Assembly: GCA_903885665.1 (NCBI GenBank)
Contig: CAISJL010000061.1
Coordinates: forward strand, 1-37,377
DNA length: 37,377 bases
DNA from: an uncultured beta proteobacterium
GTDB taxonomy: Bacteria; Pseudomonadota; Gammaproteobacteria; Burkholderiales; SG8-41
Direction of reading: 5' to 3'
Positions 1-28,110 of this stretch are shown here, in pieces. A program made the position numbers and the translations under genes. The notes beneath the pieces were generated by a model. That model had not been told where the DNA came from. It saw only the letters and a list, made by a program, of their open reading frames with translations, and did no database searches. The number at the start of each line of letters is the position of its first letter. The stretch's first letter is position 1.

Positions 1-77
1 CTGTGGCGTGAGGGTGGGTGTATTCCATCCATTTGACGACTTCAACTTATTTGGCCGACGAGGCCCCGAAGGTTGCC

Positions 78-3000
78 ATGGCGAGTATCAGTACAAATTT
101 AAATGCAGCGATTGCTCAAGCATCGCTCAAGACCAATGCCCGTGAATTAACTGCATCGATGCAGCAATTGTCGACTGGGCTGCGGATCAATTCGGCCAAA
201 GATGATGCGACTGGCATCTCGATTACCACGATGATGACCACTCAAATTCGTGCCTTAGATCAATCGGTGCGCAACGCCAATGATGGGGTCGCTTTATTGC
301 AAACCGCTGATGGTGCGACGGGTGAAATTAGTTTGATGTTGCAGCGCATGCGTGAGTTGGCGGTGCAGTCGATGACTGATACCAATACGGCTGAGAATCG
401 TGGTTACTTAGATGTGGAGTTTCAACAGTTAAAGCAAGAAATTGTGCGGGTTGCTGACACGACCGAATGGAATGGTTTTTCGGTATTAAATGGCACGGCA
501 GGGCGGCGGGTCGAGGATGCACCTGCGATGCGCGCAACTGCCAATGGCGTATTTAGTAGTAACTTATCATATTCTGTTGCAACCGCAACAAATACTGGGA
601 AATCTGTCACTACTAACAATAGTGCTACTGACATTGCTAAGTCGGGCACTTTAAAATATTTGGGGAGCAATGCTGCAGAGCTGATCTTAAATGATGGATC
701 AACAGTTCATTTAACTTGTAGTCAATCGGGTAATACACTGTCCTTTACAAATACTGCGTTGACTGATGGTAGTGGCACTGTGCAACTGACTGCAGCGACT
801 GGTTGGGCGGTAAGTGACCAGCTATTAATTATGCGTAATAGCCCAACATTATCTGCGATGGGCGCGAATGATGTGCTGATTAATGGCAATGCTATTGCCG
901 GATCGCAGACCAGTAATGATTCGCTTTCAACTTCCAATAGGGCTGCTAGTGCCATTGCAAAGGTTGCGGCATTTAATGCGGCAACCGGTGTCACTGGGGT
1001 TAGTGCTGTTGTCGGACGCACGGTATTAAGTGGCGCACCAATGACGGGTGAGGCAACTCAGCAGGGCGTCTCCAGCGGCACCATTACAATTAACGGAGTG
1101 ACTACGGCCCCATTGACTACGGTTGCAGGCAATACGCGTGCGACTCGTACTGCGCTCGTTGATGTGATTAATGCCAAATCTACATTAACTGGTGTGGTTG
1201 CAGTCGATAGTGGTAATGATTTTTCGGGAATTCGTCTGGAAGCCGCTGATGGTCGAAATATTGATGTTGCATTTAATACTAATTCTACGGCCGCAGATTT
1301 TTCAGCGCGCACTGGCTTGCGCCAAGGTGTGCAAAGCGCCCCGTATTCATTACAAGCGCCGGTATATAACGCTAATGCACTGGTGGGTAATACGACTACG
1401 CACGTTGGCGAAGTGTTGATTCAAACAAATTCTGTAGGTGATATTACGCGTAGTGGATTGCAGATTGGTAATTACACCAATAATGAATCAGTATTAAGTG
1501 CGCAAGCGCGCGCTACGGTCACTACTGCTGGTGCGCAGGTGGATACCTTAGCAATAGCAAACAATGTCAATGTTGGTGATGTATATAAAGCTACAATTAA
1601 TGGTCGCTCTGTCAGTTTCACGGCGACAGCAGCAACGACGGCAAACGTGCAAGCGGGTCTGCGCGCAGCGATTTCAGCTGACCCCGTGTTGGCAAGTATG
1701 GTTTCAACCCAAGCCAGTGGTTCAGCAGGTATTACCATGACTGCAGTGCGCCCAGGCAATGGTTTTGAGGTGTCGATTCGTAAGGTAACCATTGGCAGCA
1801 CAGTTACGCAAAATGTGGCGGCTACGGCGACAACCAAGCAAAAAAATACCTTAAGCATTACTGGTCCTGTGCAAGTGGGTGATGTGTTTAAGATCACAAT
1901 TTCAGGTCGCTCGATATCCTATACCGCAATGTCAAATACAGTGGCTGATGTGCGCGCTGGATTAACCACTGCGCTGAAAGCAGATCCGGTATTGGGTGCT
2001 GATTATAATTTTGGCGTGGGCACCAGCGTCGATCTTAACGAGCTAACAGTCACCGCTGCGAGCAATAACCAGCGGTTTGCTATGGGCATGACCCAAACTT
2101 TGGATGGTGCTACGGTTACAGTGACAACGCCTAATGCACCCGCTTTGGTGAAACCTTTGCAAGCCGGTGATTTAGTGATTAACGGTGTAGCTATTGGTGC
2201 GAGTGCTGCTGAGGATGATCCGTTCTCGAACGTAAACGTGACCAGTAGTTCGGCGGCTGCTAGCGCAATTGCGATTGCTGCTGCAATTAATCGACAAACA
2301 GATTCAACCGGTGTGAAAGCCACACCCAATACCGTAAGCAGTATAGGTGGTTTGACTGACACCTCAGGTGCAGCCACTGGTGTGCAAAGCTTATTCATTA
2401 ACGGTGAAGAGGTTAAAGTTAATTTAATCTCCACGGATACCGCCAGTGCACGTCAAGATCGAGTCATTGCAGCGATTAATCTGCAATCACAAAGCACCGG
2501 GGTAGTTGCGAGTAAAAATGCGAGCACTTCTGGAGTGGTCTTAACTTCTGAAGACGGTCGCAATTTATCGGCTTGGTATAACGCAAGTATTACGGGCTTA
2601 TCGGCATCGAGTTTTGGTTTATCCTCAACCGATGTTCTGGGGCTGGCTGATGCCACTCAAGAAAGTGTGGGTGCAAAAACCTTATATGCTTCCGTCAGTT
2701 TAACTACAGTACCTAATGATGGTGCGCCAGGCACTGAGCGGGCCTCTGGTTTGATTCATGTTACTGCAGGGGTCAATGGTTTTGCCGATGACTCAAACTT
2801 TAAAGCCCTGGGTTTTGTAGAAGGTACTTATGGTGGTCAGGCAGTAGGTGATATTGCTGTGCCTAAAGTCGGACGTTTGAGTTTTCAGATTGGCGGCAGC
2901 AGTGGTGAAGAGGTCGCGATCGATATGGTTGATTTGGGTCGGCATGGCACTATTACCGGTGCAATTACTGGTGACGTAGATGATACAGACCCGACGGTGC

Positions 3001-3296
3001 GGATTAATACGGTAGCTGGCGCGAATGATGTTTTAGGTTTGATTGATGCGGCTATTGAAAAAGTGAGTTCGGAGCGTGCCAAGTTTGGTAGTGTGATGAA
3101 TCGCTTGAATAATGCAGTCGATAACCTGATGAATGTTTCGGCCAATTCGACCAGTGCGCGCAGTCAGATTCAAGATGCTGATTATGCAATTGCCTCTACA
3201 CGTTTGGCGCGGGCGCAGATTATTCAGCAGGCAGCCACTGCTGTTCTAGCGCAAGCCAATATCAGCCAAGAGTCGGTATTAAAACTCTTGCAGTAA
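78..3296 (+). CDS. fliC: Giant flagellin (flagellar filament subunit)
   Basis: Filament protein, exported through the flagellar type III apparatus. The ATG at 78 is chosen because GAAGG lies 5 nt upstream and the product then begins MASISTNLNAAIAQ, a normal flagellin start; a 20-residue upstream extension (from 18) does not look like flagellin. The product is 1072 aa, about twice or more the usual length. Residues 1-150 are the D0/D1 half with LSTGLRINSAKDDATG; residues about 975-1072 are the C-terminal D1/D0 half ending in the typical ISQESVLKLLQ. The middle contains four segments resembling flagellin hook IN motifs (about 265-313, 335-378, 697-750, 770-815) and a repeated module (484-544 and 585-645) around VGDV-K-TI-GRS. 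Residue 214 is the only cysteine. The promoter lies outside the window. Confidence 0.96.
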   Translation: MASISTNLNAAIAQASLKTNARELTASMQQLSTGLRINSAKDDATGISITTMMTTQIRALDQSVRNANDGVALLQTADGATGEISLMLQRMRELAVQSMTDTNTAENRGYLDVEFQQLKQEIVRVADTTEWNGFSVLNGTAGRRVEDAPAMRATANGVFSSNLSYSVATATNTGKSVTTNNSATDIAKSGTLKYLGSNAAELILNDGSTVHLTCSQSGNTLSFTNTALTDGSGTVQLTAATGWAVSDQLLIMRNSPTLSAMGANDVLINGNAIAGSQTSNDSLSTSNRAASAIAKVAAFNAATGVTGVSAVVGRTVLSGAPMTGEATQQGVSSGTITINGVTTAPLTTVAGNTRATRTALVDVINAKSTLTGVVAVDSGNDFSGIRLEAADGRNIDVAFNTNSTAADFSARTGLRQGVQSAPYSLQAPVYNANALVGNTTTHVGEVLIQTNSVGDITRSGLQIGNYTNNESVLSAQARATVTTAGAQVDTLAIANNVNVGDVYKATINGRSVSFTATAATTANVQAGLRAAISADPVLASMVSTQASGSAGITMTAVRPGNGFEVSIRKVTIGSTVTQNVAATATTKQKNTLSITGPVQVGDVFKITISGRSISYTAMSNTVADVRAGLTTALKADPVLGADYNFGVGTSVDLNELTVTAASNNQRFAMGMTQTLDGATVTVTTPNAPALVKPLQAGDLVINGVAIGASAAEDDPFSNVNVTSSSAAASAIAIAAAINRQTDSTGVKATPNTVSSIGGLTDTSGAATGVQSLFINGEEVKVNLISTDTASARQDRVIAAINLQSQSTGVVASKNASTSGVVLTSEDGRNLSAWYNASITGLSASSFGLSSTDVLGLADATQESVGAKTLYASVSLTTVPNDGAPGTERASGLIHVTAGVNGFADDSNFKALGFVEGTYGGQAVGDIAVPKVGRLSFQIGGSSGEEVAIDMVDLGRHGTITGAITGDVDDTDPTVRINTVAGANDVLGLIDAAIEKVSSERAKFGSVMNRLNNAVDNLMNVSANSTSARSQIQDADYAIASTRLARAQIIQQAATAVLAQANISQESVLKLLQ
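1527..2012 (+). repeat. Diverged internal repeat in the flagellin variable domain
   Basis: Within the flagellin, residues 484-544 and 585-645 align as two copies about 100 residues apart. Shared landmarks in order are VGDV(Y/F)K-TI-GRS(V/I)S(F/Y)TA, then V(Q/R)AGL, then ADPVL. They are similar in protein sequence but not in DNA, so the duplication is old. The pattern resembles repeats I recall from large bacterial surface adhesins; that resemblance is from memory. Confidence 0.6.
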
Positions 3297-3338: not shown

Positions 3339-3599
3339 ATGAATACCGTAAATACCCCTAATGAGCGCCCACATTGCCAGCAATGTCAGCATTTTGGTGT
3401 GAGTTGGGAGCCGCGCATGCCGTATTTGTGTCGATTGTTCGGTTTTAAAAGTCGGCAGCTACCGTGCTTGGAAGTGCTGCGTAATGACGGTTGTTTGTGT
3501 CGGGGTTTTTTGAAAAAAACCATGAGTCAACCGGCACAGCAGGCCGCACCGGTAACGTCACAGCCTGCTGCCCCCTCAGGTATAGAGCGCTGGGTTTAA
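3339..3599 (+). CDS. Small cysteine-rich protein of unknown function
   Basis: 86 aa, not assigned to a named family. Cysteines lie at residues 13, 16, 31, 43, 52 and 54, including CQQC and CLC, and a central RLFGFKSRQLPC segment; this looks like a small metal-binding fold. The last 25 residues are a low-complexity Ala/Pro/Gln tail. There is no signal peptide or membrane segment, so it is probably cytoplasmic. It lies 42 nt after the flagellin and before the flagellar regulator, in the same direction. No clear ribosome-binding site precedes the ATG. I recall small proteins with this cysteine pattern in proteobacteria, some near flagellar genes, but no proven role. Confidence 0.7.
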   Translation: MNTVNTPNERPHCQQCQHFGVSWEPRMPYLCRLFGFKSRQLPCLEVLRNDGCLCRGFLKKTMSQPAQQAAPVTSQPAAPSGIERWV

Positions 3600-5205: not shown

Positions 5206-5541
5206 ATGGTTGATCAAGTTCATATGGCAAATATTAATTCAATGCTAGATCAGATTCGGCAGTATGAAGTTCGCGCTAAAGGTGCGGATTTACTACCTGC
5301 AACAGATCCTGCCAGTACTAAGGTAGGCTTCTCTGGTTTGGTTAAGGGTGCTTTTGATGCGGTGAATGAGCAGCAACAAAAAGCTAAATCGATGTCAGTC
5401 GCCTATGAGCAAGGTGAGGATATTCCCTTGACGGATGTGGTGTTGCAAATGCAAAAAGCGTCGGTAGCATTTGAGGCTACGCTACAGATTCGTAATAAAG
5501 TGATTAAGGCATATGAAGATATTCGTAATATGCCGGTGTAA
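5206..5541 (+). CDS. fliE: Flagellar hook-basal body protein FliE
   Basis: Rod-proximal adapter thought to join the MS-ring to the rod; exported by the flagellar apparatus. 111 aa, normal for the family. The C-terminal half is characteristic: VVLQMQKASVAFEATLQIRN followed by KVIKAYEDIRNMPV, matching the usual FliE ending. The ATG at 5206 has GGGGA close upstream, formed across the stop codon of the regulator, so the two genes are probably translationally linked. A second Met at codon 7 is possible but less well placed. Confidence 0.95.
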   Translation: MVDQVHMANINSMLDQIRQYEVRAKGADLLPATDPASTKVGFSGLVKGAFDAVNEQQQKAKSMSVAYEQGEDIPLTDVVLQMQKASVAFEATLQIRNKVIKAYEDIRNMPV

Positions 5542-5629: not shown

Positions 5630-7600
5630 ATGGCAGCTGCTCTACAAACCGCACAGAATACCGTTATGGGACAAGCTACCCCTGGCATGGAGTCGGGCGC
5701 GCTGACCGCTGGTGTTACCCAAGCCAATATGGCAGTTGCTGCTAATGGCGCAGCTGGTGCAGCATCGGTGGCGTATCCTGCAGCTGGCGGCCCCATGGCG
5801 ATGTCTGGTCTACAGGCTGTGTTCAAGCAAGAGGCAGTGCGCAAGGCATTGCCAGCGATTATTGTGTTACTGACTTTAGTGCTGTTTGGTTCGATTTATG
5901 CGTGGATGCAAGAAACCCCGTATCGTCCGTTATTTCCAGGGATGGCTGAATCGGATCAGCAAGCGGCGATGGAAGTTTTAAAAGCAGCTAACATGAAACC
6001 ACAACTAGATCCAACCAGTGGTCAGTTAACCGTGCCTTCAGGTCGTTATCATGAAGCGCGTATCTTATTGGCAGGCCAAGGTTTGCCAAAAGCGCAATCG
6101 CGCGGTGTGCTCGATAGTTTAAAAGATCAATCGGCAATGACCAGTAGCCAGTTTATGGAACAAGCGCGTTATTCAGCCGCGATTGAGCAAGAGTTAGCAA
6201 AAAGTATTGCGCAAATTGGTTCGATTCAAAGTGCGCGTGTGCATTTGGCACAAATCAAACAAAGTGCATTTGTGCGTGAACGCACACCGGTTAAGGCGTC
6301 TGTAGTGGTGGTGCCTTACGGTGGCCGTGCGATATCAGCCAATCAGGTGCAGGCCATTGTGCATTTAGTGGCATCCAGCATCCCTTATTTGTCGACTGAT
6401 GATGTGTCGGTTGTAGATAACGTGGGTAATTTACTGACCCGCAATCCAACTGAATCACTATTAGGATTGACTGCGGCACAGGTTACTCACAAGCAACAAG
6501 TTGAGGAAACATATCGTAACAGGATCATACAGCTGTTAGAGCCAGTGGTGGGTGAGGGTAATGTGCGCTCACAAGTGTCTTTAGAGATGAACTTCACGCA
6601 AGTAGAGACCACCTCTGAGGATTTTGATGTACGTAAAGAAGGTGCAAAAACACGTTCTGAGATGCTGTCTGAAGAGCGTTCTACATCCGCCCCTGAGGCC
6701 GGAGGTGTTCCTGGTGCGTTATCCAATGCGCCCCCTGCAGATGCAGCAGCGACCACTGATACCAAAAGCGCTGATGAAAGCAAGGGCAAAGACAGCAAGG
6801 GTCAGTTAAATACTAAAACCACACGTAATTATGAGTTGGATAAGACCATTCGCCATGTGAAGAGTCCAATGGGAATGATTGAGCGTGTTTCAGTGGCTGT
6901 CGTCATTAAAGATCGCGTGGCTCCGGTTTCCAGTGAAAAAGAATCAGATAAAGGTGCAGGTAAGGGTGGTAAGGGTGCGCCTGCTGCAGATGCTGGTGGT
7001 TATAGCAAAGAAGAAATTGAGCGCTTACAGTCTTTGGTGAAAAGTGCTGTTGGCTTTAGTGATGATCGCAACGATACCGTGACGATTATTCCGGCAAAAT
7101 TTGAATTGCCAGCAGCTGATGGCTCCGCAATTCGTTGGTATGAAAATGATATGGTAGTCAGCAGTATTAAGGTTGGATTGGCGACTGCGGTATTAATTGT
7201 GATCTTGATTACTGTTGTGCGCCCATTAGTTAAATCGTATTTGCCACAACCAGCGATTGCGCCAGAGATCTTGGCCTTGGCACAGCAACAACACTCTGCA
7301 CTAGAGGCTTCTGCCGCTGCGGGTCCGGCAGGTGTTGGTGGTGGGGGCAGCGGTGAAGGTGCTGAGGGTCTGGAAGGTGCGCAAGCCGGTGAGGATGGTA
7401 TGGCCATGGCTGAGGGTGAATCTTTAGAGCAATTTAAAGAGCGCTTGAAGAAATCAGCAGCCCCTAAAAAGTCCTCTATTTCCTCGGATATGCTTGATAC
7501 TGCAAACACTTACGATGATAAGGTTGCTCTGGTGAGGATGCTGGTGCAAGAGGACTCCGGCCGGGTTGCGAATGTTTTGAAAAACATGTTGCGTGCCTAA
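5630..7600 (+). CDS. fliF: Flagellar MS-ring protein FliF
   Basis: Forms the membrane ring on which rotor and export gate assemble. The ATG at 5630 is preceded by AAGGA with 7 nt spacing; a TTG at 5624 is too close to that site. 656 aa, somewhat longer than usual because of an Ala/Gly-rich N-terminal leader of about 60 residues. Membrane helix 1 is at about 74-91, followed by the ring-building region (PYRPLF, SARVHLA, SVVVVPYGG). A Ser/Lys/Asp-rich low-complexity insertion lies before NYELDKTIRHV. Helix 2 is at about 513-531. After a Gly/Glu-rich linker, the tail at 597-656 (SLEQFKERL ... YDDKVALVRMLVQEDSGRVA) is the FliG-binding segment. That tail is repeated in the next gene. Confidence 0.97.
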   Translation: MAAALQTAQNTVMGQATPGMESGALTAGVTQANMAVAANGAAGAASVAYPAAGGPMAMSGLQAVFKQEAVRKALPAIIVLLTLVLFGSIYAWMQETPYRPLFPGMAESDQQAAMEVLKAANMKPQLDPTSGQLTVPSGRYHEARILLAGQGLPKAQSRGVLDSLKDQSAMTSSQFMEQARYSAAIEQELAKSIAQIGSIQSARVHLAQIKQSAFVRERTPVKASVVVVPYGGRAISANQVQAIVHLVASSIPYLSTDDVSVVDNVGNLLTRNPTESLLGLTAAQVTHKQQVEETYRNRIIQLLEPVVGEGNVRSQVSLEMNFTQVETTSEDFDVRKEGAKTRSEMLSEERSTSAPEAGGVPGALSNAPPADAAATTDTKSADESKGKDSKGQLNTKTTRNYELDKTIRHVKSPMGMIERVSVAVVIKDRVAPVSSEKESDKGAGKGGKGAPAADAGGYSKEEIERLQSLVKSAVGFSDDRNDTVTIIPAKFELPAADGSAIRWYENDMVVSSIKVGLATAVLIVILITVVRPLVKSYLPQPAIAPEILALAQQQHSALEASAAAGPAGVGGGGSGEGAEGLEGAQAGEDGMAMAEGESLEQFKERLKKSAAPKKSSISSDMLDTANTYDDKVALVRMLVQEDSGRVANVLKNMLRA

Positions 7601-7617
7601 GGCATTGCTGATTGATC

Positions 7618-8148
7618 ATGGATGATTTGATTGTAGGCATGTCCAAGTTAGCAATGGTGGGCGTGATGCTTCTGGTAGTGATTTTGGTGATATTGCGTCC
7701 GGCTAGGCGTACGGCACCGATAACATCAATGGCTTATTTGCCGCGAACACAAGGGCTGGATGCATTAGGGCAAAGGTCAATGGAGCAAGGTGCATCAGAG
7801 ACGAATGCGTTGGAGAACAGTGCAGTGGGTCAGCTGGATACCAAACGGGATGCCTTAGCCTTGAGTGGTGGTAATGGTCAGTCTCTAGCGTTGATCGAAG
7901 GAGGCTCGGCTGATACTAATGATGCCGCTGTAGGTGAGGCAGCAGGTGAAGAGCAGTCATTAGAAGCGTTTAAAGAAAAGCTGAAACAGGCGGCGCCTAA
8001 GAAAAAAACTGCAATTTCAGCAGAAATGCTAGACACATCATCAAGTTATGATGATAAGGTAGCGATGGTTCGTATGTTAATATCTGAAGATTCGGGCAGA
8101 GTTGCGAGTGTAATCAAAGGTATGATGAAAAGTAATGGAGTGAAATAA
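7618..8148 (+). CDS. FliF C-terminal-like protein: one membrane helix plus FliG-binding tail (partial fliF duplication)
   Basis: 176 aa from the ATG at 7618; a TTG at 7612 has AAGG at better spacing and would add two residues. A membrane helix spans about 8-27 and is followed by RPARR, paralleling FliF helix 2 followed by RPLVK. A variable linker (about 30-110) leads to a tail at 113-172. By hand this tail aligns without gaps to FliF 597-656 with 37 of 60 identical residues, including MLDT, YDDKVA, VRML and EDSGRVA. It has no FliF ring domain. It lies 17 nt after fliF and 5 nt before fliG, intact and co-directional. It could anchor or sequester FliG outside the MS-ring; that is inference. An unrelated small membrane protein is unlikely given the alignment. 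Confidence 0.9.
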   Translation: MDDLIVGMSKLAMVGVMLLVVILVILRPARRTAPITSMAYLPRTQGLDALGQRSMEQGASETNALENSAVGQLDTKRDALALSGGNGQSLALIEGGSADTNDAAVGEAAGEEQSLEAFKEKLKQAAPKKKTAISAEMLDTSSSYDDKVAMVRMLISEDSGRVASVIKGMMKSNGVK

Positions 8149-8153
8149 GGATC

Positions 8154-9218
8154 ATGGCTCAAAATAATGCAGCTGAGGCGGGGCTAGAGCCGCCAGCAAT
8201 GAGCGAAAAGCTCAAACAAGAACTCGATCAACTCACTCGAATACAGCGTGCCGCGGTATTAATGTTGCTATTGGGTGAGCAAGAAGCCGCAAATATTATT
8301 CAGTATTTAGATCCTAAAGAAGTGCAACCGCTGGGTGCCGCAATGGTCTCCGTTGCCGATATTTCGCAAGAGGCTATTAATCATGTGTTGGATGAATTTC
8401 TCCAAACTATTAAACAACAAACGTATTTAGGTTTAGGTGTTGAAGACTACGTAGAGACAGTATTGAAGCGTGCCTTGGGCGCAGATAAGGCCGCTTCAGT
8501 TTTAGGGAGAATTTTGCCAGGTTCTTCCAGCAAAGGCTTGGAAGTGTTGCGTTGGATGGATGCGCGCGGTATTGCAGATATGGTGCGTGAAGAGCATCCG
8601 CAGGTGATAGCAATTATCTTATCCGTTTTAGAGTCCATGGTGGCTGCTGATGTATTGAATTATTTAGATGCAGAGATTCGCCCCGAGATTATCCAGCGCA
8701 TTGCGACCTTGGATACAGTCACACCGGCTGCGATGAAAGAGCTAGAAGTCATCATGAGTAAACAGTTCTCTTCGAGCTCATCGAGCGCATCGTCTAACTT
8801 GGGTGGTGTGAAGGTTGCGGCTGATATTTTAAACTTTACTAAAACCACACCATTGGCTGGCATTATGAAGTCGGTGACTCAGTCGGATGGTGATTTAGCA
8901 CTAAAAATTCAAGATAATATGTTCACCTTTGCTAACTTGGTGGGCTGTGATAACCGTAGTATTCAGGTCATTATGCGTGCCGTAGAGCCCGATTTGTTGA
9001 TGGTGGCCTTAAAGGGTGCGGATCAAGGTGTGCGTGCTAAGTTCTTTGATAATATGTCAACTCGTGCCCGTTCCATGTTTATCGATGATATGGAAGCGAA
9101 AGGCCCGATGCGCTTGGCCGATGTTGAAGAAGGCCAGAAGCAAGTGATTCGGATTGCCCGTAAGTTGTCGGATACTGGCGAGATTATGTTAGCTGGTGGT
9201 GGTGACGATTTTGTCTAA
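8154..9218 (+). CDS. fliG: Flagellar motor switch protein FliG
   Basis: Rotor protein of the C-ring that couples stator ion flow to rotation and sits on the FliF tail. 354 aa, slightly longer than usual through a 16-residue N-terminal extension and a Ser-rich stretch near 205-212. The EHPQ motif of the middle domain is at 147-150. The C-terminal torque helix carries the conserved charges in RARSMFIDDMEAKGP (Asp311, Asp312). AAGGA lies just 2 nt before the ATG, a short spacing; Met16 is a possible alternative start. Its end overlaps the start of fliH. Confidence 0.97.
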   Translation: MAQNNAAEAGLEPPAMSEKLKQELDQLTRIQRAAVLMLLLGEQEAANIIQYLDPKEVQPLGAAMVSVADISQEAINHVLDEFLQTIKQQTYLGLGVEDYVETVLKRALGADKAASVLGRILPGSSSKGLEVLRWMDARGIADMVREEHPQVIAIILSVLESMVAADVLNYLDAEIRPEIIQRIATLDTVTPAAMKELEVIMSKQFSSSSSSASSNLGGVKVAADILNFTKTTPLAGIMKSVTQSDGDLALKIQDNMFTFANLVGCDNRSIQVIMRAVEPDLLMVALKGADQGVRAKFFDNMSTRARSMFIDDMEAKGPMRLADVEEGQKQVIRIARKLSDTGEIMLAGGGDDFV

Positions 9219-10356
9219 TTCTTCATCTCACGCACCCAATTCTGCTGCGGCAGCTCGGTTTCATACGCTGCCCATCGAGGAGAGTGCTAAGATCGTTCGC
9301 CCCTTTGTTGAGATTTGGAATGCGGTCGATGTAGTGAATAAACCATTTCATGCCAGTCAGTGGGATGGTCAATCGCCAGTGCCTGCGCATGAAGGGACTT
9401 CATCGGAAGTCGCTACCCATGTGCAAGAGCTCGTTGATGATGCTGCTATAGCAGATGATGTTGCTGTTGACGCTGCAAGTGATAGTCAAGATGTTGTTGC
9501 TGCCGACTCTGTTATTGATACAGCGATCGATACTGCAGTTACTGTGACTGAAGTTGTAGCGGATGAATCGCATCAATTGGCGCTGCAAGCGCAATGGGAT
9601 GCTGGTTATGAAGAGGGTTTGGCTAAAGCGCGTGCTGAGCATGCAATAGCGATTAAAGAAGAACACCAGCAACTCAATGCGTTAATGCAATCAATTAATG
9701 ACGCTTTGAGCAATACGCCACAATTATTTGCCGGTTTTGAGCGACTAGCGCTACATATGGCCAAGCAATTGGTGCGTGGTGAGTTATCATTATCAGGAGA
9801 TGCGATTCGTAGACTCATTGCGGGTTGCTTAGTCGATATTGAAAATAAAGTAGCATTGACGGTATTTTTAAACCCAGAGGACTTGGATAAATATCGTATA
9901 TTGAATGAAGGTTTGCCGAAAGGGGCAAGCATTGCTCCGGATGCGGCTCTCAGTCGTGGCAGCGTGCGCGTTGCAATGGCTGATGGTGCAATAGAAGATT
10001 TAATAGAGCATCGACTCGAGTCACTCGCCCAGTCTTTACTCGGAAGCTCTGCAGAGCAGTTGGGTGTGTTGGGTGGTGCACAGTCGATTGCGGGGATGTC
10101 TGGTTTAGGACAGTCTAGTCATCTTGCACATCCGGTAAGTCCGTCGTTTGTCAGCCAACGTCATCATGATCAGGGTAGTGTGAATTCACATGCTAACACT
10201 GTGCATGCTGATGTTGAAGATCTTGCTGATCGCGCAGATTCACGTTTTGCAATCAGTGACGTGGATGACTTTACGGTATTGCCACCAATTGGTAGTGGGG
10301 ATGATTATCCGAGCGCGCCTGCAGAGGATTCCATCCGGCATTACGATGGGCTTTGA
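9196..10356 (+). CDS. fliH: Flagellar assembly protein FliH (extended form)
   Basis: Regulator of the export ATPase FliI and carrier of it to the export gate. 386 aa, against roughly 230 in typical FliH. The conserved part is about 125-290: QWDAGYEEGLAKARAE coiled-coil start, then the globular region ending IEDLIEHRLESLAQSLLG. The N-terminal extension is acidic and Ala/Val/Asp-rich (about 70-125), and about 95 variable residues follow the core. The start is uncertain: three consecutive GTG codons (9196, 9199, 9202) and a TTG at 9211 are available, with no clear ribosome-binding site. All overlap fliG, so translational coupling is likely. Confidence 0.9.
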   Translation: MVVTILSNSSSHAPNSAAAARFHTLPIEESAKIVRPFVEIWNAVDVVNKPFHASQWDGQSPVPAHEGTSSEVATHVQELVDDAAIADDVAVDAASDSQDVVAADSVIDTAIDTAVTVTEVVADESHQLALQAQWDAGYEEGLAKARAEHAIAIKEEHQQLNALMQSINDALSNTPQLFAGFERLALHMAKQLVRGELSLSGDAIRRLIAGCLVDIENKVALTVFLNPEDLDKYRILNEGLPKGASIAPDAALSRGSVRVAMADGAIEDLIEHRLESLAQSLLGSSAEQLGVLGGAQSIAGMSGLGQSSHLAHPVSPSFVSQRHHDQGSVNSHANTVHADVEDLADRADSRFAISDVDDFTVLPPIGSGDDYPSAPAEDSIRHYDGL

Positions 10357-11680
10357 TTTTACTCACGATGTAGATCGCGCCATACGCCGCACCCGTATTG
10401 GGGAGCCTGTGCGTAGCGGTCGACTCTTGCGTATGGTCGGATTGACCTTGGAGGCCAAAGGGATACAAGCGCCGATTGGTGCGCATTGTATTGTTGAAGG
10501 TGCTGAAGGTATCCGAGTTGAAGCTGAAGTCGTGGGCTTTAATGACAAGACCACATTTTTAATGCCCTTTAGTGCCTCTACAGGTATTGCACCTGGTGCG
10601 ATTGTGCGTGTGGTGAGCATGACGCCTAAGGCGCGTTTGGGTGTAGAGTTATTGGGGCGCGTGATTGATGCGCGAGGCCATCCTCTAGATGGTCGCCCAC
10701 TGCCCGAATGTAATGATGAATTAAGTCTGCAGGGTTTGGAGTTAAATCCATTAGAGCGCGGCCCAATTGATCAGGTCTTAGATGTTGGTGTGCGGTCTAT
10801 CAATGCTATTTTGACTATGGGTCGTGGTCAGCGTGTGGGTTTGATTGCTGGATCGGGCGTGGGCAAGAGTGTGCTACTCGGGATGCTGACGCGCTACACC
10901 AAGGTTGATGTCGTGGTCATTGGTTTGATTGGTGAGCGTGGTCGCGAAGTCAATGAGTTTATTAAAGAGTCCCTAGGGGCTGAAGGTCTGGCCCGTTCCG
11001 TAGTGGTAGCAGCACCTGCGAATGTACCGCCAGTTTTGCGGTTACGGGCAGCGCACTTGTCACATCTGATTGCAGAATATTTTCGTGATCAAGGCTTAAA
11101 CGTGCTTTTAATCATTGATAGTTTGACTCGCGTGGCGCATGCGCAGCGCGAAATCGGTTTAGCCGTTGGTGAGCCACCCACCTCTAAAGGGTATCCGCCA
11201 TCGGTATTTGCTTTGCTCCCCAATTTAATTGAGCGTGCAGGTGTAGGGCGTAATGGTGTGGGTTCGATCACTGCGATCTATACGGTGCTGATGGAAAACG
11301 ATGATCGTTCAGACCCTATTGTGGATATTGCTCGTGCATCTTTAGACGGTCAGGTGATGTTGTCCCGAGACTTAGCAGATGCCGCGCATTATCCCGCCAT
11401 TGATTTGACTGGCTCGATATCACGGGTGATGCAATCTATTGTGCCCGCCGACCGTTTACAAGCCGCTAATCGCTTGCGCCGATTGTGGAGCGTGTATCAG
11501 CAAAATCGTGATTTAATTCAAGCTGGTGCTTATCAAATGGGCGCCAATAGCGAGCTTGACGAGGCAATTAGTCGTCGTGGAGATATGGAAGAGTTCTTAC
11601 GTCAAGGTATGCATGTGGGGGTTGATTATGAAACCTCGATTGCTGAGCTCCTGACAGTGTTGCCAGTAAATACAAATTAG
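10346..11680 (+). CDS. fliI: Flagellum-specific export ATPase FliI
   Basis: Hexameric cytoplasmic ATPase of the flagellar type III export apparatus. The ATG at 10346 gives 444 aa, the usual length, and overlaps fliH by 11 nt; the 52-residue in-frame upstream extension lies inside fliH and is not FliI-like. Walker A is GSGVGKSV (169-176), followed by GERGREVNEF and the family signature DSLTRVAHAQREI with GEPPTSKGYPPSVF. The C-terminal region (QNRDLIQAGAYQMGANSELDEAI) also matches. No frameshift was seen. Confidence 0.97.
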   Translation: MGFDFTHDVDRAIRRTRIGEPVRSGRLLRMVGLTLEAKGIQAPIGAHCIVEGAEGIRVEAEVVGFNDKTTFLMPFSASTGIAPGAIVRVVSMTPKARLGVELLGRVIDARGHPLDGRPLPECNDELSLQGLELNPLERGPIDQVLDVGVRSINAILTMGRGQRVGLIAGSGVGKSVLLGMLTRYTKVDVVVIGLIGERGREVNEFIKESLGAEGLARSVVVAAPANVPPVLRLRAAHLSHLIAEYFRDQGLNVLLIIDSLTRVAHAQREIGLAVGEPPTSKGYPPSVFALLPNLIERAGVGRNGVGSITAIYTVLMENDDRSDPIVDIARASLDGQVMLSRDLADAAHYPAIDLTGSISRVMQSIVPADRLQAANRLRRLWSVYQQNRDLIQAGAYQMGANSELDEAISRRGDMEEFLRQGMHVGVDYETSIAELLTVLPVNTN

Positions 11681-11693
11681 ATGAGGTATTGAT

Positions 11694-12137
11694 ATGAACA
11701 CAGGTCGGACATGGGATGTGTTAGCGCAGTTAGGTGAAACCAAAGCCAGTGATGCGATGGCCAATTTGACTCGTGCGCGTAAAACCTTAGAAGATATGCA
11801 AGCCTCAGAGGCGCGCTTGCAGGAATTGTATGCTGATTACAGTAGTCGATTACAGCAGCAAGATGGCGCTGTATGCAGTATGAGCGAGACCAAAAATATC
11901 CGTAATTTTATGGACCATATTGAAAATCTGCGCGAGGGTATGACTAAGAATCGACTGATTGCAGAAAGTGCAGTAGGGACTGCCCGCCGGTTGCATGCAG
12001 AAGCAGAACAGTATCGCGTCAAAATGCGCGGACTAGCGGATCGGGCTGCTGAGCAACTACGGCGTGAACAAGAAGCGGCAGAAGCAAAGCGTATGGATGC
12101 TCTGGCTGTTAGTCGTTATAACTTTGGACGGCGTTAA
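11694..12137 (+). CDS. fliJ: Flagellar export chaperone FliJ
   Basis: 147 aa, nearly all predicted helical coiled coil with heptad-like Leu/Ala spacing and many Glu/Arg residues, as in FliJ, which fits into the FliI ring and promotes export. GAGG lies 7 nt before the ATG. It is 13 nt after fliI and ends the block; fliK, the C-ring genes fliM/fliN and the export-gate genes do not follow and must be elsewhere. The assignment rests on position as much as on sequence, since FliJ is poorly conserved. Confidence 0.9.
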   Translation: MNTGRTWDVLAQLGETKASDAMANLTRARKTLEDMQASEARLQELYADYSSRLQQQDGAVCSMSETKNIRNFMDHIENLREGMTKNRLIAESAVGTARRLHAEAEQYRVKMRGLADRAAEQLRREQEAAEAKRMDALAVSRYNFGRR

Positions 12138-24418: not shown

Positions 24419-25627
24419 TTGAATACAGCTAGAGTCTTGCCAAGTGCTTGGATTGTAGTGGCCGTGGCCACTTATGCGCAGATGATGATTGCGATGTCGA
24501 ATATTTTATTGCCGATCATTGCGCCTAAGCTAGCTGAGTCGCTTGGCGTCAGTCCGGTCCTCATTGGCTATCAAGTCAGTTTGACTTTTGGCGTGGCTAC
24601 TTTGGCGACTTTGTTAGCTGGAAATGCGGTATTGCGCTATGGTGCGGCAAGAACGACTCAGTTTTCACTGTTGTGCTGTGGTATTGGTATGGCTTTGTTT
24701 GGTGTGCCTAGCTTGTGGGCGATTGCAGTCGGTTCTTCTTTTATCGGGGTTGGTATGGGCGTAATTAACTCTGCTGCCGCACATTTGTTAGTCGCCTATA
24801 CCACACCCGAACGTCGTAATATTATGTTTTCAATTAAACAAACTGGTGTGCCTGTTGGTGGAGTGCTCACTGGCCTGACCGCTCCTACGATTGCTGTGCG
24901 CTATGGTTTTGGCTGGTCTTTGGTGATGGTGATTGTCTTAATTTTGATATTAATGGTATTTATCCAACGCTATCGTGAGTTGTGGGATCAGGACAGGGGT
25001 ACGGAAAAAGCCGCTAAAACTGCGCCGTTTGGAGGTGTGCCTATGGTGTGGCAACAACCCGATTTGCGCTGGGTTTCTATGGTGGCAATGATTTTCTCGG
25101 GTATTCAGCGTTGTGTGCTGAGCTTTACTGTGGTTTATCTTGTTGCTGAGGGAGGCTTTAGTTTGGTTCAGGGGGGAGTGATGTTATCTGTTGTGCAAGT
25201 AGGGGGCTCTTTGTCGCGGATTAGTTGGGGTTGGCTTGCCGATCGTTTGCAAAGCAGTTTGTTGGTGTTGTTCATCATTTGTTTGATTACTATTGTCTCG
25301 ACTTTAGGCTTAGTCTTTTTTGCCAATACTTGGCATCCCTTGGTGGTGTATGTTTTGTTTTTTATTTTGGGTGCGAGTACGGTGGGTTGGAATGGTGTAT
25401 TTCATGCGGAAGCTGCGCGCCTGAGTCCGCCTGGTATGGCGAGTGTAGTAGCAGCTGGTACTACGTTTTTTGTGTTCGGTGGTGTGCTAATTGGACCTGC
25501 AGCATTTTCGATGGCCTATGGCGTTATCGGCAGTTATAGTCAGACCTTTCAGTTAGTCACATTATCTGCAGTGATTTCATTGGGTTTTTTAATTTTAGCG
25601 CAACGCGCATCTAGAGTAAGGCAATAA
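24419..25627 (+). CDS. MFS transporter, first of three tandem paralogues
   Basis: 402 aa with about 12 membrane helices, a secondary transporter of the major facilitator superfamily. Landmarks shared with the next two genes are SNILLPIIAPKLAESLGV in helix 1 and its loop, SIKQTGVP (138-145), SRISWGWLADRL in the mid-protein motif A, and GWNGVFHAEAARLSPPG late. The start is TTG at 24419 with no clear ribosome-binding site, chosen because helix 1 begins by residue 11. Substrate unknown; its position opposite the UbiD operon suggests import or export of related acids. Confidence 0.9.
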   Translation: MNTARVLPSAWIVVAVATYAQMMIAMSNILLPIIAPKLAESLGVSPVLIGYQVSLTFGVATLATLLAGNAVLRYGAARTTQFSLLCCGIGMALFGVPSLWAIAVGSSFIGVGMGVINSAAAHLLVAYTTPERRNIMFSIKQTGVPVGGVLTGLTAPTIAVRYGFGWSLVMVIVLILILMVFIQRYRELWDQDRGTEKAAKTAPFGGVPMVWQQPDLRWVSMVAMIFSGIQRCVLSFTVVYLVAEGGFSLVQGGVMLSVVQVGGSLSRISWGWLADRLQSSLLVLFIICLITIVSTLGLVFFANTWHPLVVYVLFFILGASTVGWNGVFHAEAARLSPPGMASVVAAGTTFFVFGGVLIGPAAFSMAYGVIGSYSQTFQLVTLSAVISLGFLILAQRASRVRQ

Positions 25628-26872
25628 GTGTCCGTGAAGGATAGCGAATCAAACGGCATGTTGCCGCAAGTCTCTATTGTATTAGTGGTGCTGGTGAGCA
25701 CCGCAACTCAAGTCGCCTCGGCGATGGGCATTGCCATTTTTCCAGTCATTGCACCGCAACTTGCCCTGATGCTCGGGGTGGATGCATCTTACGTGGGTTA
25801 TCAAATCTCTATGGTATTTGGTGCCGCCATGCTTGCTTCGTGTGTTGTTGGGCCTGTGGTGTTGCGGTGGGGTGCTTGTCGGGCGATGCAATGGTCGATG
25901 TGGTTGGCAGCTACTGGTTTGTTGGCGGCGTTAAGCGGGCAACTGTGGTTGATGCCTATAGCTGCAATGGGTATCGGTGCGAGTAATGCCTTGGCTGCCG
26001 GCGGCGCATCGCATTTATTGTTCCGCTTTAGTCAAGCGCGAAATCGTAATTTAATTTATTCCATCAAACAAACCGGTGTGCCGCTGGGCTGGGCAACGGC
26101 TGCTTTGTTCGCACCAATTTTAACGGTGCAATATGGATGGCGTATGCCTATGTTGATAGTATTTTGTTATGCCATTTTTGGAGGGGCGTTATTAGGACGT
26201 TGGTGTACGATTTGGGATGATGATCGAAATCCGCAAGCGGCGCAAAAAACGAATCTGCTCTCGGGAATTGTGTTGCTATGGCATTACCCGATCTTGCGCT
26301 ATCTGGGTATTGCATCCTTATTTTTTTCATTTGCACAGTCTTGTTTAGGCACATTTACCGTTAACTTATTAGTGCAAGAGGCAGATTACTCCTTGGTTGC
26401 GGCGGGCTTGATGTTGTCGGTGATACAAATCTCTGGCGTCTCGGGGCGTGTGATTTGGGGTCTGATTGCGGATCGGCTAGGTAGTGCGATGGGTTTATTG
26501 GTTGTTGGTAGTGTATTGATGGCAGTCGGATGTTTAGTGAGCTTCAGTTTGTCTGGTCATTGGCCGCAGCCACTACTGGTTATTTTTTATATGCTGTTTG
26601 GGATGGTGGCTTATGGTTGGAATGGTATTTTGCATGCGCAGATTGCGCGTTACAGTCCGACTGGTATGGTGAGTGTTGCTACCGGCGGAATGATGGCTTG
26701 GGTCTTTGGTGGAATTTTAATTGGTCCGGCATTGTTTGCGTTTTCGTATCGATGGCTAGGACGCTATACATGGACTTATGGTTTATTGGCCATCATCGCG
26801 CTCACTGGTGCGTTGTTTGCTGGGATGGCGTTTTATCAAGAGCGTAAACTTCATCAAGTTGCAGTATCTTGA
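25628..26872 (+). CDS. MFS transporter, second of three tandem paralogues
   Basis: 414 aa, about 12 membrane helices. GTG start directly after the preceding stop codon, with AAGG 6 nt upstream. It aligns with its neighbours at IAIFPVIAPQLALMLGVD, SIKQTGVP (145-152), SGRVIWGLIADRLG and YGWNGILHAQIARYSP. The level of divergence between the three copies suggests old duplication and possibly distinct substrates. Confidence 0.92.
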   Translation: MSVKDSESNGMLPQVSIVLVVLVSTATQVASAMGIAIFPVIAPQLALMLGVDASYVGYQISMVFGAAMLASCVVGPVVLRWGACRAMQWSMWLAATGLLAALSGQLWLMPIAAMGIGASNALAAGGASHLLFRFSQARNRNLIYSIKQTGVPLGWATAALFAPILTVQYGWRMPMLIVFCYAIFGGALLGRWCTIWDDDRNPQAAQKTNLLSGIVLLWHYPILRYLGIASLFFSFAQSCLGTFTVNLLVQEADYSLVAAGLMLSVIQISGVSGRVIWGLIADRLGSAMGLLVVGSVLMAVGCLVSFSLSGHWPQPLLVIFYMLFGMVAYGWNGILHAQIARYSPTGMVSVATGGMMAWVFGGILIGPALFAFSYRWLGRYTWTYGLLAIIALTGALFAGMAFYQERKLHQVAVS

Positions 26873-28110
26873 CTAGTGCGCTGATTTCTATGGATCGTCG
26901 AGTTATTGCTGTTGTTGCAGCGACTACTGCTGCGCAGGTTGCAGGCGCCATGGGGTCTGCAGTATTTCCGGTGATTGCCCCTAAGCTAGCGCAGTCCTTG
27001 TCGATTGATCCGTCTTGGATTGGTTTTCAAATGAGCTTGATATATGGATCAGCCATGGTAGGTTCTGTGTTATTTGCTAATTTAGTGCCGCGTTATGGTG
27101 GATGTCGAACGACACAGATTGGTTTGAGTTTTTGTGTTTTAGGATTGTTGCTGGGTATGCAGGGTAGTGTAGCAGCCTTGGTGCTGACTTCGGTTTTCAT
27201 TGGTATTGGTATGAGTATTAATTTGCCGGCTGCAGGGCATTTGTTGTTTCGATTTAGTCCGCCTGAGCGCCGCAACTTTATTTTTTCCTTTAAACAAACC
27301 GGTGTACCTTTTGCTTGGGCCTTGATGGCTGTGATTGCTCCCAGTATTACTTTGCAATGGGGGTGGCGCTGGGCTTTAGGTTTGGTATTGCTCTCAGCTG
27401 TTGTAACGGTAATTGCGATGCAGTCTGCGCGAGAGCAATGGGATGATGATCGTTTGCATCACACAAGTCCACGCGGCAATTTATTTGAGGGCTTGGGTTT
27501 GGTGTGGCGTATTCCCAGTTTGCGATGGTTAGGTATTGCTTCTTTTTTCTTGGCTTTTATACAGCTGTGTGTGGGAACGTTTACAGTGATTATGTTGGTT
27601 ACTGAAGGCGATTACAGTTTGGTCCAAGCTGGACTAATGTTGTCGGTTGCGCAAATGGCCGGGGTATTTGGACGTTTGTTTTGGGGGTGGTTAGCAGATC
27701 GGGTTGGTGATTGTGCGCAAGTGTTGCAGTGGTTGACTTCAGTGATGTTGGTATGTTGTGTGGTGATTGGCTTTTTGCGGCCAGGTTGGCCAGTATGGTT
27801 GTTAGCGATATTGTTTTCTGTGATAGGTGCTACTGCCGTGGGTTGGAATGGTTTGTATACCGCGGAAGTTGCTAAGCGGAGTCCGTCCGGTAAGATTAGT
27901 ATTGCCACTGGTGGGGCAATGGTGTGGAATTTTGCGGGCATACTTGCTGGCCCAACAACATTTACCTTGGTCTATGCGTTAACGGGTAGTTATGCCCATA
28001 CCTTTGGTTGTTTAAGCGTTGTGGTGTTAGCAATTTTTGTTGCCTTATCGGCAAGCAAGCGACATGCCGAGACGACAATAAGGACGCACGCGGTGGATCA
28101 TCATGGTTGA
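26869..28110 (+). CDS. MFS transporter, third of three tandem paralogues
   Basis: 413 aa, about 12 membrane helices. The TTG at 26869 overlaps the preceding stop in TTGA; ATG at 26890 (codon 8) is equally possible because neither has a good ribosome-binding site. It shares SAVFPVIAPKLAQSLSID, SFKQTGVP (140-147), FGRLFWGWLADRVG and GWNGLYTAEVAKRSPSG with the other two. Its end overlaps the TauE/SafE gene by 8 nt, so four transport genes seem to form one transcript. Confidence 0.92.
   Translation: MTSALISMDRRVIAVVAATTAAQVAGAMGSAVFPVIAPKLAQSLSIDPSWIGFQMSLIYGSAMVGSVLFANLVPRYGGCRTTQIGLSFCVLGLLLGMQGSVAALVLTSVFIGIGMSINLPAAGHLLFRFSPPERRNFIFSFKQTGVPFAWALMAVIAPSITLQWGWRWALGLVLLSAVVTVIAMQSAREQWDDDRLHHTSPRGNLFEGLGLVWRIPSLRWLGIASFFLAFIQLCVGTFTVIMLVTEGDYSLVQAGLMLSVAQMAGVFGRLFWGWLADRVGDCAQVLQWLTSVMLVCCVVIGFLRPGWPVWLLAILFSVIGATAVGWNGLYTAEVAKRSPSGKISIATGGAMVWNFAGILAGPTTFTLVYALTGSYAHTFGCLSVVVLAIFVALSASKRHAETTIRTHAVDHHG

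Follow-up and report, generated by a model that had tools for sequence, protein, structure and literature searches.

The window, that is, the whole stretch of 37,377 nucleotides that was analysed, carries a flagellar operon in which the genes from fliE to the fliJ-like ORFs, including a short additional gene, all lie on the forward strand. Its fliE gene (5206..5541) was recognised by NCBIfam TIGR00205 (E 3.7e-23). The fliF gene (5630..7600) encodes a full-length protein of 656 aa with both ring domains and a tail of its own (PF01514, E 5.4e-52; PF08345, E 1.1e-37; TIGR00206, E 2e-71). The second membrane helix (TM2) of FliF was placed approximately at 7163..7243 by hydropathy and alignment, and its FliG-binding tail at 7409..7597 by position and by alignment with the copy described below, the role of the tail being taken from published FliF-FliG work. 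The fliG gene (8154..9218), which encodes the presumed binding partner, has FliG_N, FliG_M and FliG_C Pfam matches and is the only FliG found in a search of the window's own genome. The remaining operon (9196..12137) comprises fliH, fliI and fliJ-like ORFs, named from position and appearance rather than by profile.

Between fliF and fliG lies an intact frame of 176 aa (7618..8148), which starts with the ATG at 7618, 17 nt after the end of fliF at 7600, and ends with a TAA at 8148, 5 nt before the start of fliG; the initial annotation, made from the sequence alone, had given both the frame and the spacings correctly. We refer to the product as mini-FliF. Since fliF is complete with its own tail, as judged by Pfam, NCBIfam and BLASTP, mini-FliF is an addition and not part of a split FliF. 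Searches of Pfam, NCBIfam and PHROGs returned no family above cut-off for mini-FliF, and the ring domains YscJ_FliF and YscJ_FliF_C are absent from it (no Pfam or NCBIfam FliF match).

Analysis of the ORF, a translated search of the genome, a structure model and BLASTP together divide mini-FliF into three parts. The first is a membrane helix (7621..7710; residues 2-31), modelled by AlphaFold2 with a mean pLDDT of 82-97 per ten-residue block and containing the only hydropathy peak of the protein (residues 8-26), in agreement with the single helix proposed at the outset. The second is a linker (7711..7947) with very low model confidence (pLDDT below 50 for residues 55-82 and 84-111) that is predicted to be disordered. 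The third is a putative FliF-type FliG-docking tail (7948..8136), in which helices were modelled at moderate confidence at residues 115-125, 136-140, 144-157 and 159-173; mean pLDDT and pTM for the whole model were 62 and 0.24, respectively. The helix is preceded by the acidic MDD and followed by RPARR, and these charges suggest that the tail would be cytoplasmic, as it is in FliF.

The tail matched a FliF tail profile with an E value of 4.1e-33, mini-FliF's own sequence being among the ten rows of that profile, and BLASTP aligned mini-FliF to its own FliF without gaps at 40/67 identical residues (E 8e-25). Over 60 residues aligned without gaps, the best match to the adjacent FliF contained 38 identities, compared to the 37 counted originally, and 200 shuffled mini-FliF proteins compared to FliF from residue 501 on reached a maximum of 17/60. 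In a translated search of the window's own genome residues 2-175 of mini-FliF aligned at 41% (E 4.5e-23), indicating that its similarity to FliF extends back to the helix end. A PDB search with the tail profile yielded chance-like matches only, and found no solved FliF tail by sequence. Mini-FliF resembles the C-terminal part of FliF in its FliG-docking tail, its low-complexity linker and its TM2-like helix. Unlike FliF, it lacks TM1, YscJ_FliF and YscJ_FliF_C, so it cannot form an MS ring as FliF does; with a single helix it also lacks the two membrane helices flanking a periplasmic region that are expected of the FliF family.

The source assembly is a draft of 187 contigs. FliG was detectable in 5 of 20 genus-mates and was of another type, with 43-44% identity to the window FliG. 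The window contig may have been transferred or misbinned; the fliF-mini-FliF-fliG junction is unaffected either way.

Several other ORFs of the window were named by eye. A very long flagellin-like ORF of 1092 aa occupies positions 18-3296, and still longer ORFs stand in the same place in relatives L082 (1348 aa) and L089 (1335 aa). A small cysteine-rich ORF lies between the flagellin and a sigma-54 regulator in all three (window, 3339-3599; L082, 4863-5204; L089, 5565-5888); its likeness across lineages was judged by eye, and the window copy has a sub-threshold Pfam match only. Positions 24419-28110 hold three tandem, mutually similar transporter-like ORFs, of the MFS type by eye.

Distribution and origin of the gene

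The junctions compared here are those of the best 80 of 193 relatives from a FliG scan, and the relatives found are mostly metagenome bins. At 4 of these best 80 junctions (L012, L013, L014 and L019) an intact gene encoding a helix and a tail lies between fliF and fliG, its start falling anywhere from 18 nt after to 4 nt inside the end of fliF, and at 2 others (L045 and L059) a tail without a membrane helix occupies the same place. In a tree of FliG and FliF (29 of 81 sets) the window and L012, L013, L014 and L019 form separate branches of one clade with L010-L020. Decayed copies are present at L018, where the copy contains stops, at L011 and at L101, which is another contig from the L011 genome, while neither a gene nor a remnant was found at the junctions of L010, L015, L016, L017 and L020. 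One gain and several losses explain this distribution. L010 has the closest FliG (82%) among the best 80 of 193 and carries neither the gene nor a recognisable remnant, indicating that the gene is dispensable.

Whole-genome searches for the tail covered 71 of the 80 loci, in sets of 21 and 50, the balance being L024, L032, L037, L041, L043, L052, L053, L077 and L086. Among the 21, an intact second tail was found in 9 (L012, L013, L014, L019, L045, L059, L073, L082 and L089), a remnant in 2 (L018 and L011) and none in 10. The further 50 genomes, which are of the same flagellar type, all yielded the FliF tail (50/50) and none a second tail in a short frame (0/50); the extra tail is therefore a feature of certain lineages and not a general flagellar part. 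The tail profile derives from this flagellar type, and tails belonging to other types would escape it. The tail type is matched in 5 of the 74 genomes of the window's family, of which 3 carry an intact extra gene, 1 a remnant and 1 FliF only.

A search of 61 related genomes matched mini-FliF to its own genome and to one chance-level place (G014, E 0.08), and a scan of viral contigs found no relative of mini-FliF. A survey of the class gave matches in 7 of 369 genomes, the window's own included, and the other six were weak: five lie in frames of 560-586 aa, and G522 contributed a short frame that is a piece of FliF beside a run of Ns. Likewise, the second L074 match is no mini-FliF but a frame of 603 aa whose ends are those of FliF, and an 84-aa frame in G951 is the end of a FliF cut by the contig start and followed by fliG.

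The genomes of L013 and L014 (G429 and G430) encode, besides a FliG of the window type, a second FliG of another type with 41% identity, which suggests two flagellar systems per genome. The bins of L017, L018 and L020 are titled Bordetella parapertussis; in the tree, their FliG and FliF fall among those of uncultured betaproteobacterial bins, and the titles look like misnomers.

In a tree of 21 FliF proteins and 5 copies, the five clade copies (window, L012, L013, L014 and L019) form one group with a support of 94. Their occupation of the same junction in five genomes, and their separation from FliF, identify a single orthologous mini-FliF family in the window's clade. The L013 FliF is the neighbour of this group (support 96; some inner nodes are weak, 49-73), and the L013 copy and FliF may have exchanged sequence in the past. 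Over a 42-codon core these two tails differ by a pN of 0.021 and a pS of 0.545. Recent gene conversion as the sole cause of their near-identity was rejected, as about half of the synonymous sites differ; at most it would be an old event.

The anchors were compared to a profile of FliF TM2 built from 74 of 81 FliFs, those of at least 560 aa, a likeness that the initial annotation had not remarked on. The helix of the window mini-FliF scored 11.1 bits and that of the L019 copy 21.0 bits, compared to a best score of 9.3 bits among 43 hydrophobic segments, partly overlapping, taken from five further proteins of the window and at most 2.9 bits for eight FliF TM1 segments. The helices of the L012, L013 and L014 copies did not score above the controls. 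Because its helix resembles FliF TM2, mini-FliF is most readily understood as a paralogue of the fliF 3' end that is truncated and has no ring domains. The simplest account is that this 3' end, starting at TM2, was duplicated in tandem and that the anchor then drifted in some lineages.

Purifying selection on the tail was shown in two ways. In the five clade copies, 105 of 125 tail positions that are invariant in FliF (columns identical in at least 90% of 29 of the 81 FliFs) are kept, compared to 9 of 30 in variable columns (under 60%). In addition, pN/pS was 0.18-0.34 in all 10 pairs of the five copies over the 42-codon core, with synonymous change beyond saturation in 7 of the 10, so that the comparison of synonymous and non-synonymous change proposed at the outset does reveal constraint. 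For the FliF tails of the same genomes pN/pS was 0.01-0.17, and tail identity was 52-71% among the five copies versus 76-94% among these FliFs. The copies therefore evolve faster than the FliF tails, yet are clearly constrained. The initial annotation had proposed a separate, membrane-anchored FliF tail, to be abandoned if it were absent from all relatives and free of purifying selection; with the gene intact in four relatives, decayed at three junctions and kept by selection, that proposal is supported, whereas the functions suggested with it, to seed FliG, fill ring mismatches or sequester FliG, are candidate roles.

The FliF-type tail in other builds

The membrane-anchored tail is not unique to this clade, and other lineages carry the tail in other builds. 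One of these is a helix-plus-tail protein of 219-228 aa encoded between fliH and fliI in L073, L082 and L089. It recurs in f49 (f1, f18, f19, f49 and g508 are anonymous family or genus labels), where 18 of 399 genomes have the tail type and four, all of genus g508, carry the extra gene between fliH and fliI; within g508 these are 4/4 of the genomes with this FliF type, among the matches listed. The placement in all four rests on ORF reading with genes named by resemblance, and one of the four genomes is a single contig. This version is intact in seven genomes and is under strong purifying selection: in the 15 pairs without the divergent L115, dN/dS was 0.03-0.12 for the tail and 0-0.05 for the helix region, and in the 6 pairs with L115 it was 0.22-0.52 (5 pairs with finite dS) and 0.07-0.17, respectively. 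The three helices scored against FliF TM2 reached 19.7-20.8 bits, so that the copies with a helix above the controls are those of the window, L019 and these three. The L082 protein was modelled as a long helix (residues 3-75), a low-confidence linker and tail helices (mean pLDDT 68, pTM 0.28).

The tail also occurs with other anchors or with none. The L045 copy at the fliF-fliG junction consists of 70 aa and has no membrane helix, and the start of the other tail-only copy, L059, is doubtful, with an in-frame stop after its ATG. In family f18 the tail ends a frame of 260-443 aa, away from fliF, in 14 of 26 genomes, and hydropathy predicts two membrane segments in 7 of the 14, four in 6 and five in L093. 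No flagellar neighbours were recognised by eye among the ORFs read around these genes, and the first 80 residues of the proteins exceeded the controls against FliF TM2 in 0/14 cases. The f18 protein goes with this FliF type (9/10 genomes with the FliF versus 5/16 without; one-sided Fisher p 0.005), an association weakened by the incompleteness of many of the 26 genomes. Finally, one f19 genome (G362) encodes a one-helix tail version of 283-290 aa some 3 kb from an flhB-like ORF; this genome, which is 81% complete, yielded neither a FliG nor any FliF tail of this type.

The f18 tail proteins adjoin a recurring single-helix protein of about 200 aa (L090, 7628-8224; L091, 6878-7474; L095, 4987-5598) or, at the two loci tested, an Adhesin_E (PF16747) protein (L092, 2917-3366; L093, 5273-5719). 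It is possible that these neighbours are partners of the f18 tail proteins. ORFs beside flhB-like genes at L082 (18346-19929) and L096 (8045-9454) are loosely alike by eye.

Retention of FliF-invariant columns differs among the builds: it was 25/50 in the tail-only copies (n=2), 49/75 in the fliH-fliI copies (n=3), 255/350 in the multi-helix proteins (n=14) and 17/23 in the L096 protein. The low values of the tail-only and fliH-fliI copies indicate that some of them may bind FliG differently or not at all. Judged by their differing gene positions and anchors, the builds seem to be of independent origin. The presence of similar tails in different builds suggests that extra rotor docking sites were useful more than once, and also that the contact between FliF and FliG serves as a portable plug.

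Possible functions at the rotor

On the current view, the FliF tail holds FliF and FliG at a one-to-one ratio and thereby sets rotor size. Published work describes the FliF C terminus and the FliG N domain as the link between the MS and C rings (PMC11528121), a FliG copy number that follows the 34-FliF ring and not the FliG level (PMC10128058), a Salmonella C ring whose size still shifts, mostly by a single subunit, although the FliF ring is fixed at 34 (PMC8270960), and a C-ring diameter that depends on the FliF C terminus as a template (PMC12222027). If the FliF C terminus acts as a template and FliG number follows FliF, then a free tail held at the membrane could add docking places for FliG. 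We tentatively favour, at somewhat below even confidence, the view that mini-FliF is an auxiliary, membrane-held dock that adds FliG sites at the MS/C-ring interface; without ring domains it cannot build an MS ring, and would act in an auxiliary capacity.

The steps of this model, FliG binding among them, are predictions drawn from homology, distribution and selection. Mini-FliF would be made next to FliF and would insert in the membrane with its tail in the cytoplasm. The tail can probably replace that of FliF in the FliG N-terminal domain, and would fold with this domain in the same manner. Settled at the rim of the MS ring, mini-FliF would offer extra docking sites that recruit FliG, allowing the FliG ring to be started or completed without strictly one FliF per FliG, and other lineages seem to have reached a similar solution with other anchors. 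Several points count against a dock. The gene is dispensable, the copies change faster than FliF tails, the tail-only and fliH-fliI copies keep fewer of the FliF-invariant columns, the L012, L013 and L014 helices do not exceed the controls, and confidence in the structure model is limited (mean pLDDT 62, pTM 0.24). We know of no way for a protein without ring domains to hold a fixed place in the rotor. Moreover, in C. jejuni the C ring was concluded to be widened through a wider FliF ring (PMC12222027).

A broader claim would be that a dedicated second class of FliG-docking subunit uncouples FliG number from FliF number, permits rotor size to change without rebuilding the MS ring and was invented at least three times in this flagellar type, anchored by FliF TM2, by a multi-helix membrane protein or not at all; we consider this rather doubtful. 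Natural tail proteins without rings offer a ready means to test for a fixed ratio, and to study the initial placement of FliG and the evolution of rotor size.

Among known proteins FlgV of Campylobacterota (PMC10655999) comes closest in size and likely place. FlgV is likewise a small inner-membrane accessory protein, and assembles into a ring next to FliF and FliG-N where the MS and C rings meet, a location that mini-FliF may share. FlgV has 104-118 aa, two membrane helices, a GFFxG motif and a gene between flhG and fliA; in contrast, mini-FliF has one helix, no GFFxG and a gene between fliF and fliG. In the FliF-FliG fusion of solved structure 8z4d, as judged from its PDB listing, FliF and FliG form one chain with a forced 1:1 ratio; the fusion links the FliF tail and FliG at the membrane covalently, whereas mini-FliF would do so through a non-covalent contact. 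Among the titles and abstract openings listed no such protein is described, which is weak evidence of absence.

The finding that the tail is also borne by proteins with no helix or with several implies that a FliF-like anchor is not essential, and recruitment or tethering fits this at least as well as insertion into a ring. Mini-FliF could be an assembly factor that captures newly made FliG at the membrane, passes it on to the FliF ring and has no place in the finished motor. The position of its gene between those of the two partners, its membrane-held product without ring domains and an anchor that varies across lineages, down to none in L045, are all what one would expect of such a carrier. 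However, a tail co-folded with FliG would have to be displaced by the very similar tail of FliF, no release feature was seen, and the nearly identical tail cores of L013 (pN 0.021) show no visible difference in affinity; we regard a carrier as unlikely, though less so than the remaining alternatives.

A different role is implied if the tail is a generic plug that holds other membrane proteins to the rotor at the FliF-FliG layer, mini-FliF being the smallest such adaptor. The f18 multi-helix proteins, encoded away from fliF in 14/26 genomes, accompanying this FliF type and adjoined by the single-helix or Adhesin_E proteins (the latter at the two loci tested), are in keeping with this, as is the FlgV ring beside FliF and FliG-N (PMC10655999); FlgV may hold on to the rotor by other means. 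Mini-FliF itself, however, is only a helix, a linker and a tail, with nothing evident to tether but the membrane, and the f18 association is weakened by incomplete genomes; tethering appears quite improbable for mini-FliF. Still less probable is a decoy that binds FliG away from motors and so limits flagella number or delays C-ring assembly. A tail that is free of ring domains would be expected to compete for FliG, and repeated loss fits a dispensable regulator, but mini-FliF seems to be co-produced with FliF and FliG, and a soluble peptide would suffice for this purpose, although the version between fliH and fliI has kept its helix nearly invariant.

Decayed copies in relatives, a draft assembly of 187 contigs and relatives that are mostly metagenome bins might point to a functionless remnant of a decaying fliF duplication or to an artefact of assembly, a very remote prospect given that misassembly and pseudogene readings were rejected on copies intact in five genomes, mostly saturated synonymous change and tail residues conserved under selection, and that intact copies of the fliH-fliI version occur in seven genomes, of which one is a single contig.
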